From the NCBI RefSeq assembly GCF_003337735.1, contig NZ_QPJY01000018.1, positions 1-51,524 of the forward strand: a DNA stretch of 51,524 nt, in the 5' to 3' direction. The position numbers and the translations under genes were made by a program. The notes beneath the pieces were generated by a model that saw nothing but the letters and a program-made list of their open reading frames with translations, was not told the DNA's origin and made no database searches. Source of the DNA: Thioalbus denitrificans (GTDB lineage Bacteria > Pseudomonadota > Gammaproteobacteria > DSM-26407). Positions 11,568 through 17,522 of the stretch are shown here, piece by piece; positions within the stretch are counted from its first letter, which is position 1; each line of letters begins with the position of its first letter.

Positions 11568-14500
11568 ATGGCTGAAGTCAACCACATCGACATCGAGACC
11601 CTGAAGGGGCTGATACCCTTCGGGGGCATGTCCATGGACCGGCTGGAGAAGATCGCCGCCCGGTTCGTGCTCGAGCGTGTGCCGCAGGGGCGGGTCCTGT
11701 TCCGCGAGGGAACCCGGGATCACCAGACCATCTACCTGCTCGAAGGGACTGTCGGCCTCTCCAGCCGCGGCAGGATGACCGCGCGGGTGGAGGCCGGCAG
11801 CGAGCTGGCCCACCACGCCCTGGCCAACCAGCAGCCCCGGCCCCATACGGGCGAAACCCTCACTCCCGCGCTCATCGCCCACATGGACACCACCCTCCTC
11901 GATGTCCTCCTCACCGGCGAGAGCGCCGGGGGCTACGAGGTCTCGGAGCTGGGCAGCGACGAGGGCGACGAGGACTGGATGACGCGCATGCTCCAGTCCA
12001 AGGCCTTCCTGCGCATCCCGGCGGCCAACATCCAGCGCATGCTCATGCGCATGGAGGCGGAGCCGGTCGAGGCCGGCCACGTGGTGGTCCGGGAGGGCGA
12101 CGAGGGCGACTACTACTACATCATCAACCAGGGCCGCTGCAGCGTCTCGCGCAAGGGGCCGGACGGCAGGCCGATGGCGCTGGCCGAGCTCGGCAGCGGC
12201 GACAGCTTCGGCGAGGATGCGCTGCTCTCGAGCACCCGGCGCAACGCCACGGTCACCATGCTGAGCGAAGGCATCCTCATGCGCCTGTCCAAGGACGACT
12301 TCCTCGAGCTGATGAAGTCGCCCCTGGTGGACCAGATCGACCTCGAGCCGGCCTCCGTCCTGGTGGACGAGGGCAAGGCGGTCTGGCTCGACGTGCGCGG
12401 CTCGGAGGAGTTCCTGGAGGGCCACCTCCCCGGCAGCATCAACCTCAGCCTCGCCGATCTGCGCGAGGCGCTGCCCCAGTTCAACACCGGGCGCAGCTAC
12501 ATCGTCTGTTCCGACACCGGCCAGCGCGCCGCCGCCGCGGCATTCCTGCTCAGCGAACAGGGCCTGGAGTGCCGGGTCCTGAGCGGAGGGCTGGCCGCCG
12601 TGGACCAGGCCCGGCTCGAGGGCAGCGCCCACCAGCCCGTGCGCGCCCGGACGGCCGCCGGCTCCAGGGGGTCCGGCACGGCGGAGGTCATCGAGCTGCC
12701 GGCCGCCGGCGTCCGCCCCGGCGGGGAGGGTGCCGGCGAGGGCGGATCCGCCCGCGACCTGGAGCGACTGCGCCTCGCCGCGGAGAAGCAGCTCGCCGCC
12801 ATCCGCGACAAGGCCCGCGCCCAGGTGGAGCGCTACCGCGAGGCCACGGTCGAGGCCGACGCCGCCCGCCAGGAGGCCGAGAGCGAACTCAGCCGGGCCC
12901 GGGAACAGCTCAAGGACTACGAGCGGCGCGTCGCCGAGGCCCGGGCCCTGGAGCAGCAGCTGCAGAACCTGCGCCACGAGCTGGAGGGCCTCAACGCCCG
13001 CCAACTGGAGGCGGAACAGGCCCGGGAAGAGGCGGAGCAGCAGCGCAGCGCCATCGAGGACGAGCTGGGCGGGCGGCTCGCCGATAACGAGAAACGCCGG
13101 GATGAGCTGGAAGCGGCACTGATCGATCTCACCCAGGCCCGCGACACCACCGCCGCCGAGCTGGAGCGCGTGCGCACCCAGGCGGCCGCGGCCGAATCCG
13201 CCCGGGACGAGGCGGCCGCCGAGCTGGCGACGTTGCGGGAGGAGATGGAAAAGAATGCGGCGGAGGCCGCCGCGGCGCGGGCCGGACTCGGGCAGGAGCT
13301 GGAGCAGGCCCGCGCGGAAGCCGCGGGACTGCAGGCACGCCTGGAGCAGACCATGCAGGAGGGCCAGGCGCGCGCCGAGGAGCTGCAGCAGGCGCTGGAT
13401 GAGGCCCGAAGCGAGATCCAGCGCCTGGCGGAACGCCAGGAGGCCGCCGACAGCTCCCGGGGCCGTGCGAAGGAGGCGCTGGCCGCCCTCGCCCACGCCC
13501 GCGACGAGCTCACCGACCGTCTCGAGACCCTCGCCGCCAGTGCCGACACCCTGGCGCAGGAGCGCGATGCCCAGGCCCGGGAGCTGGCCCGGCTGCAGGA
13601 ATCGGCCGCGCAGGCCGACGCGGAATACCGGCGCGGGCTCGAAGCGCTGGAGACCCGCCTGGAGGCCGCGGAAACCGCCCGCGGCGTGGCCGAGCAGGCG
13701 CTCGAACAGACCCGGGACGAGCTCGGCGGCAGCGAGTCGGCGCTGCGGGAGCAGGTCGATGCCCTGCAGGCCGAGCTGGAGACGCGCCGCCAGGCGCTGG
13801 AGAGCGCCGAGAGCCGCGCGGCCGGCCTGGAGGAACAGCGGGCGGCGGCGGAGGCGGCGCGGGATGCCACGGCGCGGGACCTGGAAGCGCTGGAGCAGGC
13901 GCGCCAGGCCCTGGCCGCGGAGCTGGAACAGCTGCGGACGGAGGCCGCCGCGGCGGCGGAAACGGGCACCGGGCTGCAGCAGGAGCTGGAGGCGCTGCGG
14001 TCCGAGCGGGATCAGAGCGTGGCGGAGCTGGGGCAGCGCAGCGCGGAGCTGGAGACCGCCCTGGCCGAACGCCAGGCCGAACTGGACGCGGCCCGGGCAC
14101 AGGCCGAAACGCTGACCGGACAGCTGGCGCAGGCCGAATCCGCCCGCGACGCGGCCCAGGGCGAGCTGGCCGCGCTGACCGCCGGGCGGGAAGAGCTCGA
14201 CGCCGCCCTGGAGGAAGCCCGGAGCCGGGCCGAGACGGCGGAAGCGGAACGGACCGCCCTGCGGGAGGAGATCGACGGGCTCCGCACCGGGCAGGAACGC
14301 GACGCCGGGCAGTTGCGGGAACGGTTGACGGAGCTGGAGCAGGCGCACGCCACGGCAGCCGCGTTGCAGGAGCGGCTGGCGGCGGCCGAAGCCGCCACGG
14401 AGGAATCACGGGAAGCGCTCACCCGCCTCGGCGAGAGCCGTGACGCCCTGGCCGGGGAAGTGGAGACCCTGCAGCGGAAGCTGGCCGAGGAAGAGACGGA

Positions 14501-17500: not shown

Positions 17501-17522
17501 CCGCGTCGTGCGCCAGGACTGA
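11568..17522 (+). CDS. Giant cNMP-binding/rhodanese/coiled-coil/FGE-like membrane protein
   Basis: A 1984-residue protein in one uninterrupted frame, starting at ATG 11568 after GGGAG. Domain order: a degenerate cyclic-nucleotide-binding-like domain (residues about 15-125); a second one (about 135-250) with an intact-looking phosphate cassette FGEDALLSSTRRNATV near 213; a rhodanese domain (about 262-350) with LDVRGSEEF and candidate Cys314 in CSDTGQR; then Glu/Ala/Gln/Arg-rich coiled coil from about 394 to 1609. One membrane segment follows (about 1642-1663), then a Pro/Ala linker. The C-terminal domain (about 1757-1983) is formylglycine-generating-enzyme-like, with GGRYTMGS, RLPTEAEWEYAARG and GNVEEWVQDC. 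SUMF1-type domains often have non-catalytic roles. Predicted topology is a cytoplasmic sensor and coil with a periplasmic tip. No partner gene is adjacent. Confidence 0.88.
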   Translation: MAEVNHIDIETLKGLIPFGGMSMDRLEKIAARFVLERVPQGRVLFREGTRDHQTIYLLEGTVGLSSRGRMTARVEAGSELAHHALANQQPRPHTGETLTPALIAHMDTTLLDVLLTGESAGGYEVSELGSDEGDEDWMTRMLQSKAFLRIPAANIQRMLMRMEAEPVEAGHVVVREGDEGDYYYIINQGRCSVSRKGPDGRPMALAELGSGDSFGEDALLSSTRRNATVTMLSEGILMRLSKDDFLELMKSPLVDQIDLEPASVLVDEGKAVWLDVRGSEEFLEGHLPGSINLSLADLREALPQFNTGRSYIVCSDTGQRAAAAAFLLSEQGLECRVLSGGLAAVDQARLEGSAHQPVRARTAAGSRGSGTAEVIELPAAGVRPGGEGAGEGGSARDLERLRLAAEKQLAAIRDKARAQVERYREATVEADAARQEAESELSRAREQLKDYERRVAEARALEQQLQNLRHELEGLNARQLEAEQAREEAEQQRSAIEDELGGRLADNEKRRDELEAALIDLTQARDTTAAELERVRTQAAAAESARDEAAAELATLREEMEKNAAEAAAARAGLGQELEQARAEAAGLQARLEQTMQEGQARAEELQQALDEARSEIQRLAERQEAADSSRGRAKEALAALAHARDELTDRLETLAASADTLAQERDAQARELARLQESAAQADAEYRRGLEALETRLEAAETARGVAEQALEQTRDELGGSESALREQVDALQAELETRRQALESAESRAAGLEEQRAAAEAARDATARDLEALEQARQALAAELEQLRTEAAAAAETGTGLQQELEALRSERDQSVAELGQRSAELETALAERQAELDAARAQAETLTGQLAQAESARDAAQGELAALTAGREELDAALEEARSRAETAEAERTALREEIDGLRTGQERDAGQLRERLTELEQAHATAAALQERLAAAEAATEESREALTRLGESRDALAGEVETLQRKLAEEETERTRLLQQHEEALNLEQTGQAALQQSVETVTAQLRESESRLAGAAEEARELQQALESAREELAQAHSRREEAESRLESYEQQLHEISEDQAEAMGARADLEARAKQLQGELEQARAAQEEAGAARATLERQLSESTERAGAAQAERGRLQQSLEALQEQFAAAEAALESSRGELEQALSERAAELEQALDRARGLETRLQDESAAQAELLDELQARLEETESRLEQARTEAERQQGELAAELDRQRTRAETLEARLQQQAGSGEEQLAGLQQELAAAEAQLAGLREQDEALRGELAAARDAGERTAAETARELEELTGRLRQAEEAGAASSAERESSEQQLAKLRQRLEQAESEREQAHTRLAELEQALGNITRERDALQAAAGEVTHRNKAVQRLQQDHALLLEDLEQTRERAENLEADLDSLRKEAEEARHAEQEASADLHQARQELERLRSHAGKLERAMQAGGGEGAQVALLRERIETLEMEAEVRHAHQESELATALDAARKEAGQEYTKALEETRAMLEQVQLQLEATRGEADHEADARARAERSLEHLQHHASDLEAELDALRQAATTGAAGGEGGERLVAEVAKLRDRLAVTQQELEDESRRRAQLEEEAGGLRNELEALQYQSRPEAAGAPIPASRSAPVAPLPASAGAPARTGGLLPALAGAVAGAVAAAAVFLLLPAGGLPGLPGLGETDTAALTAPARPQTASKTPAPAADATPASPAPAPAAEATPASPAPATARAPTATPAAAPVEPAASVPRRFSDTLAGGGRGPELIALPGGRYTMGSGGSSPHFDERPAHAVALAPYAISRTEVTFDQYDRFARATGRRLPADGGWGRGEHPVINVSWNDAVAYARWLSGQTGHTYRLPTEAEWEYAARGATTTLYWWGSDAAEAKANCFDCESRWAGSSTAPVGSFTANPYGLQDTAGNVEEWVQDCYHPNYRGAPDDGAAWVDGACEKRVVRGGHYRSTSGNLRSAKRGGTLPDSTLDTLGFRVVRQD
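16651..16728 (+). repeat. 39-bp in-frame tandem duplication in the linker
   Basis: Two copies of a 39-bp unit starting at 16651 and 16690 encode PAPAADATPASPA and PAPAAEATPASPA. They lie in the Pro/Ala linker between the membrane segment and the FGE-like domain. Confidence 0.85.

Follow-up and report, generated by a model that had tools for sequence, protein, structure and literature searches.

What does a protein do that carries cyclic-nucleotide-binding (CNB) folds at one end, a formylglycine-generating-enzyme (FGE)-like fold at the other, and about 1200 coiled-coil residues and one membrane helix in between? Such a protein is encoded in the 51,524-nt stretch of Thioalbus denitrificans DNA that we analysed (contig NZ_QPJY01000018.1, positions 1 to 51,524; the window). 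A first-pass annotation, made from the sequence of the window, had read it as a 1984-residue cyclic nucleoside monophosphate (cNMP)-binding, rhodanese, coil, transmembrane and FGE-like protein, with a structural or positional role. Such a role is plausible, and the explanation we favour, although we hold it at a little under even probability, is a coiled-coil tether or scaffold that is anchored in the inner membrane and responds to cyclic nucleotides. The features of the gene are as follows.

11568..17522, plus strand: whole gene, 1984 residues, cNMP-cNMP-rhodanese-coil-transmembrane-FGE-fold protein, same domain order in 24 relatives
11568..11924, plus strand: CNB-fold domain 1 (CNB1), residues 1-119, from the alignment, a high-confidence model with CNB-like strands and helices, and Foldseek matches to the tandem CNB of PKA/PKG
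12015..12326, plus strand: CNB domain 2 (CNB2), residues 150-253, Pfam PF00027; closest solved structures are regulatory domains of cGMP/cAMP-dependent kinases
12207..12260, plus strand: phosphate-binding cassette FGEDALLSSTRRNATVTM in CNB2, residues 214-231, from residue conservation
12342..12611, plus strand: rhodanese domain, residues 259-348, Pfam PF00581
12750..16352, plus strand: proline-free heptad coiled coil, residues 395-1595, from the lack of proline and a 3.5-residue periodicity
16488..16553, plus strand: single transmembrane segment, residues 1641-1662, from hydropathy and a helix at 1644-1661 in the predicted model
16554..16832, plus strand: Ala/Pro-rich linker, containing an imperfect 39-nt tandem repeat at 16650-16739
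16833..17513, plus strand: FGE/PvdO-fold domain, residues 1756-1982, from Pfam, alignments and Foldseek (PvdO, E 2.3e-21)

The open reading frame (11568-17522, plus strand) starts with an ATG at 11568, ends with a stop codon at 17522 and has no internal stops; its GC content at the three codon positions (0.81/0.51/0.90) is of the coding type. Pfam found three families in the 1984-residue protein (cNMP_binding, Rhodanese and FGE-sulfatase), and from N to C terminus the order is two CNB-fold domains, rhodanese, proline-free heptad coil, one transmembrane helix, Ala/Pro linker and FGE/PvdO-fold domain. We sampled 369 gammaproteobacterial genomes, and 170 of them have the N-terminal module, defined as the two CNB domains plus rhodanese. 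We fetched 40 neighbourhoods picked for long frames, among which 24 relatives (a number that, given this choice, is not a prevalence), from 15 other gammaproteobacterial families, join the module to a long low-proline region and a C-terminal FGE domain. These relatives are 1040-1881 residues long, and 23 of the 24 have an above-threshold hydrophobic segment (the exception is locus L057). The search for the same order, which the first-pass annotation had proposed, thus bears out the domain order it described. A frame of such length, with several unrelated domains, might point to an assembly fusion of separate genes, a possibility that the annotation had itself raised; the same order in 24 other genomes, closed single-contig ones included, rules this out, and we give it practically no weight.

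Of the other neighbourhoods, some encode a coil and transmembrane segment followed by another tail, some a coil that lacks a transmembrane segment but shares a C-terminal motif, and some are cut off by the end of a contig. At four loci (L078, L080, L089 and L090), relatives of the N-terminal module have a coil and no transmembrane segment, are about 800-1290 residues long, and occur in divergent or tandem pairs; most of them end in a motif like HDQ.L(L/I)(E/D)E(L/I)A..L. In a phylogeny of the module, one supported clade (97/94) holds 19 of the 25 FGE-type proteins, that of the window among them, and the FGE-type label requires three changes in total. Apart from the genus mate, a contig scan with back-translated peptides yielded just two matches, both weak and to a single domain. 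Among plasmids, 72 records matched, none covering 80% of the query, and the 20 matches listed were all to the FGE domain only.

The cytoplasmic nucleotide-sensing domain of the first-pass annotation is present, but there are two CNB folds, and, as judged from the alignment, only the second keeps a phosphate-binding cassette; none is seen in CNB1. CNB1 carries a motif conserved in the family, HP[LI]A..QPR, which in the window protein reads HHALANQQPR. Pfam cNMP_binding matched the protein in two stretches (E 5.8e-29), the best covering residues 167-250, in CNB2. The CNB2 cassette has the Gly-Glu and Arg by which cyclic-nucleotide receptors are recognised: F214, G215, E216, R225, A227 and M231 are invariant among 29 aligned proteins, and the cassette pattern is also visible over about 70 relatives. 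The predicted model of the N-terminal region (mean predicted local distance difference test score 89) has two domains that look like CNB and one that looks like rhodanese. Its best Foldseek neighbours are the tandem CNB modules of PKA/PKG regulatory subunits, which are also the best sequence matches, and the second domain keeps their cassette Glu and Arg. Unlike these subunits, however, the window protein is bacterial, lacks the CNB1 cassette, is fused to rhodanese, coil, transmembrane segment and a C-type lectin (CLec) fold, and differs in the relative placement of its domains (TM-score 0.3).

The annotated rhodanese domain is likewise there by Pfam (E 2.1e-13, residues 265-345), but without the cysteine that starts the active-site loop of active rhodaneses: in the window protein Ser315 (nt 12510-12512) occupies the catalytic column, and the loop reads VCSDTGQR versus xCDTGxRS in most relatives. 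This column is nearly invariant in the alignment of module proteins, with Cys in most relatives; the Cys is also missing at L070, L073, L077 and L087. Because the catalytic Cys is lost, the domain may act as a binding module in the window lineage.

Sensing of cyclic AMP (cAMP), one of two nucleotides whose binding the first-pass annotation had suggested testing, was assessed by scoring cyclases of class I (PF01295) and class III (PF00211). In counts and tests not corrected for phylogeny, 167 of the 170 module-carrying genomes had a cyclase of at least one of these classes, as against 88 of the 199 others; when each family was represented by a single genome, the figures were 72 of 72 versus 42 of 84. 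Of 45 genomes that encode a class I cyclase, 43 carry the module. When a fully listed subset was restricted to genomes of 2.2 Mb or more, the link of the module to class I remained (p 0.001), that to any cyclase being weaker (p 0.02). Genome G132 has a stand-alone cNMP-rhodanese gene (L094) whose immediate, convergent neighbour encodes a class I adenylate cyclase. Taken across the family, the conserved cassette and the co-occurring cyclases speak for cAMP sensing, and cAMP is our best guess for the ligand. The case is weaker for the window protein itself: the module genomes in which neither class of cyclase was found are three, namely G240, the window genome and that of its genus mate. Because the window's genus lacks these cyclases, the ligand of the window protein may be a nucleotide other than cAMP.

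It is conceivable that in this lineage the head is decaying or has been repurposed, which would leave a protein that serves solely as a structural anchor. The lack of a class I/III cyclase and Ser315 would agree with this, as would the long branch of the window protein in the module tree (0.9) and the absence, at the window copy, of the PfkB-Rieske pair found downstream in relatives. However, the cassette FGEDALLSSTRRNATVTM is intact and the module is 94% identical to the copy in the other species of the genus, which together suggest maintained selection, and we regard decay as improbable.

The roughly 1200 coiled-coil residues proposed at first pass were confirmed. Residues 395-1600 contain no proline, the hydrophobic 3.5-residue periodicity of the coil is 7.1 versus 0.98±0.18 in shuffles, and L/I/V/M on a/d heptad positions reach 83% in the coil versus 51% in shuffles. 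If the helix is continuous, about 1200 residues at 0.1485 nm would span about 178 nm, in agreement with the 180 nm estimated earlier. Of five relatives tested, four gave the heptad signal too. SMC/Rad50 models also matched the coil and could suggest a motor or partition protein, which the annotation had named as a possible identity of the coil. The matches are nevertheless confined to the coil and all far below curated cut-offs, and Pfam found no ATPase head; the candidate was rejected, and we consider it very improbable indeed.

The single hydrophobic segment at about residues 1641-1662 corresponds to the one membrane helix annotated. It is preceded by Arg and followed by acidic residues. The model of the C-terminal region contains one helix (1644-1661) and a confident FGE fold whose nearest neighbour is PvdO, so that structure prediction gave the expected kinds of domain at both termini. 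Pfam FGE-sulfatase (PF03781) matched residues 1756-1982 with E 3.6e-59, and Foldseek matched the FGE structure 2q17 with E 3.5e-18. 'FGE-like' therefore holds for the fold but not for the enzyme: the copper-binding catalytic Cys pair of SUMF1 near the C terminus is missing in 25 of 25 aligned proteins and in the alignment to 6muj, on which ground an active FGE was rejected. The domain is strongly conserved among relatives, with C1883, C1886, C1922 and C1942 invariant in those aligned, and it is probably a periplasmic binding domain rather than a formylglycine-generating enzyme. FGE-type CLec folds act as ligand-binding scaffolds in the variable proteins of diversity-generating retroelements (PMC6328139). 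A role as a target of such an element was rejected: scanning of the window, though not of the rest of the genome, found no template repeat, and the C terminus is conserved in relatives.

The only other FGE-fold homologue found in the window genome is a 485-residue paralogue (L115 1489-2946, minus strand, G000:C3), whose C-terminal FGE-fold domain shares 54% identity, and the four cysteines, with the domain in the window protein. At its N terminus the paralogue has an apparent signal peptide. This exported-looking paralogue, together with the Arg before and the acidic residues after the transmembrane segment, supports a periplasmic C terminus. The cytoplasm-to-periplasm topology of the first-pass annotation is thus supported, short of proof, by the paralogue, the conserved cysteines and the conservation in 24 relatives.

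PvdO of Pseudomonas aeruginosa, a periplasmic FGE-like enzyme of pyoverdine maturation, is the closest solved relative of the C-terminal domain both by sequence (E 8e-39) and by fold (E 2.3e-21), and the alignment shows the cysteines at 1922 and 1942 to be common to both. Given this and the strong conservation of the domain, it could be an active, PvdO-like periplasmic oxidoreductase, tethered by the coil and regulated by the N-terminal head. PvdO is, however, free-standing, whereas the window domain is tethered and additionally has C1883/C1886. The SUMF1 Cys pair is missing in all 25 proteins, the window protein scores 159 bits against the 500-bit cut-off of the PvdO dihydropyoverdine dehydrogenase model (NCBIfam NF051459), and no pathway genes lie beside the window gene. 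We find an oxidoreductase quite doubtful, slightly more so than a decaying head.

A different possibility is that the protein is primarily a signalling receptor, in which an envelope ligand would be sensed by the periplasmic CLec domain and the signal relayed through the coil into the cell, the CNB/rhodanese head being the regulated output (or the reverse). The one-helix topology with domains on both sides would suit a receptor, as would the conservation of head and periplasmic domain alongside a variable coil. On the other hand, there is no output enzyme domain, the Pfam search found no HAMP-like element, and a conformational signal through 340 to 1200 variable coil residues is hard to picture. 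We consider a receptor of this kind unlikely, though it deserves serious attention.

The tether or scaffold that we favour would work as follows. The head (degenerate CNB, cassette-bearing CNB and rhodanese) would lie in the cytoplasm, and the coil, which we infer dimerises, would keep it far from the membrane, with the transmembrane segment as anchor. The periplasmic CLec-fold domain, disulfide-stabilised and without FGE chemistry, would bind an envelope ligand and so fix or sense position. Binding of a cyclic nucleotide to CNB2 (cAMP, when the family is taken together) would alter the conformation of the head, or capture by the rhodanese-fold surface, and this may control whether a cytoplasmic partner is recruited at the envelope. 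We count for this explanation the 24 relatives, the invariant cassette, the tracking of cyclases, the loss of the FGE cysteines with retention of four invariant ones, the signal-peptide paralogue, the strong heptad signal, the CLec ligand scaffolds and the cyclase neighbour in G132. Several observations weigh against it. The co-occurrence tests carry no phylogenetic correction, and neither the window genome (99.7% complete) nor the genus mate has a PF00211 or PF01295 cyclase. The 566-residue proline-free stretch of one relative (L085) lacks the 3.5-residue hydrophobic period and shows a weak signal near 3.0 instead. Coil length ranges from about 340 to 1200 residues among relatives, an approximately 3.5-fold spread, which argues against a fixed or precise ruler. 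Finally, no conserved functional partner gene is adjacent to the window copy.

The window copy is flanked by a divergent HAD hydrolase gene (10466-11236, minus strand) and a flavin mononucleotide oxidoreductase gene (18080-19168, plus strand); the fold of its 3' flank is unremarkable. In relatives, genes for a PfkB kinase and a Rieske protein are often downstream and one for a TerB protein often upstream, and ExeA/GspB runs were also seen nearby; none of these adjoins the window copy. The relatives' neighbours point to no single pathway. Stand-alone cNMP-rhodanese genes of about 350 codons (L095-L109, L113) adjoin, at 13 loci, putative GlnK/AmtB and/or aroE (shikimate dehydrogenase) genes, the names being given from reading the sequences rather than from a family search; this hints at a link between the module and nitrogen regulation. 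Elsewhere in the window, positions 20851-24277 encode an ArsR-type regulator, an SBF-family transporter (ACR3-like), an ArsP permease and a low-molecular-weight phosphatase of the arsenate-reductase type, a probable arsenic-resistance cluster. Positions 30370-42444 (minus strand) encode a molybdopterin oxidoreductase with a twin-arginine translocation signal, NrfD, an Fe-S subunit and a nitrate-reductase-delta-type chaperone, near which are two NUBPL/Mrp-type P-loop NTPases and a MoaA-like protein.

All parts of the protein are already known; for their combination, the layout of which recurs in many Gammaproteobacteria, we found no description in the open-access literature, most subscription journals and preprints being outside its coverage. 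PorK/GldK, a lipoprotein of the type IX secretion ring, also uses an FGE fold as a structural envelope component, but belongs to Bacteroidota and has neither coil nor cytoplasmic head. HubP/FimV, TipN and EzrA are polar or envelope landmark proteins with one transmembrane segment and a long cytoplasmic part. The likeness to them is one of working only (membrane anchor, long cytoplasmic region) and implies no membership: Pfam detected no domain common to them and the window protein, and no match to LysM, the periplasmic domain of HubP/FimV.

Effects of cAMP in Gammaproteobacteria are mostly attributed to CRP. We tentatively propose, as something possible rather than probable, that these proteins represent a type of bacterial cAMP receptor, widespread yet undescribed, which is neither transcription factor nor enzyme: a membrane-anchored coiled-coil tether, with a stalk of about 50-180 nm, whose capture of partners would be controlled by the nucleotide and whose CLec domain would be pinned to an envelope ligand. 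As the module so often accompanies cyclase genes, the question of the ligand is directly testable, and lineages without a cyclase, such as the window's genus, are natural tests of other ligands of the module. The field of bacterial coiled coils would gain a long membrane-anchored tether that can be traced by light microscopy. If cAMP binding is true, a non-transcriptional, envelope-anchored type of cAMP receptor would be added to the Gammaproteobacteria.
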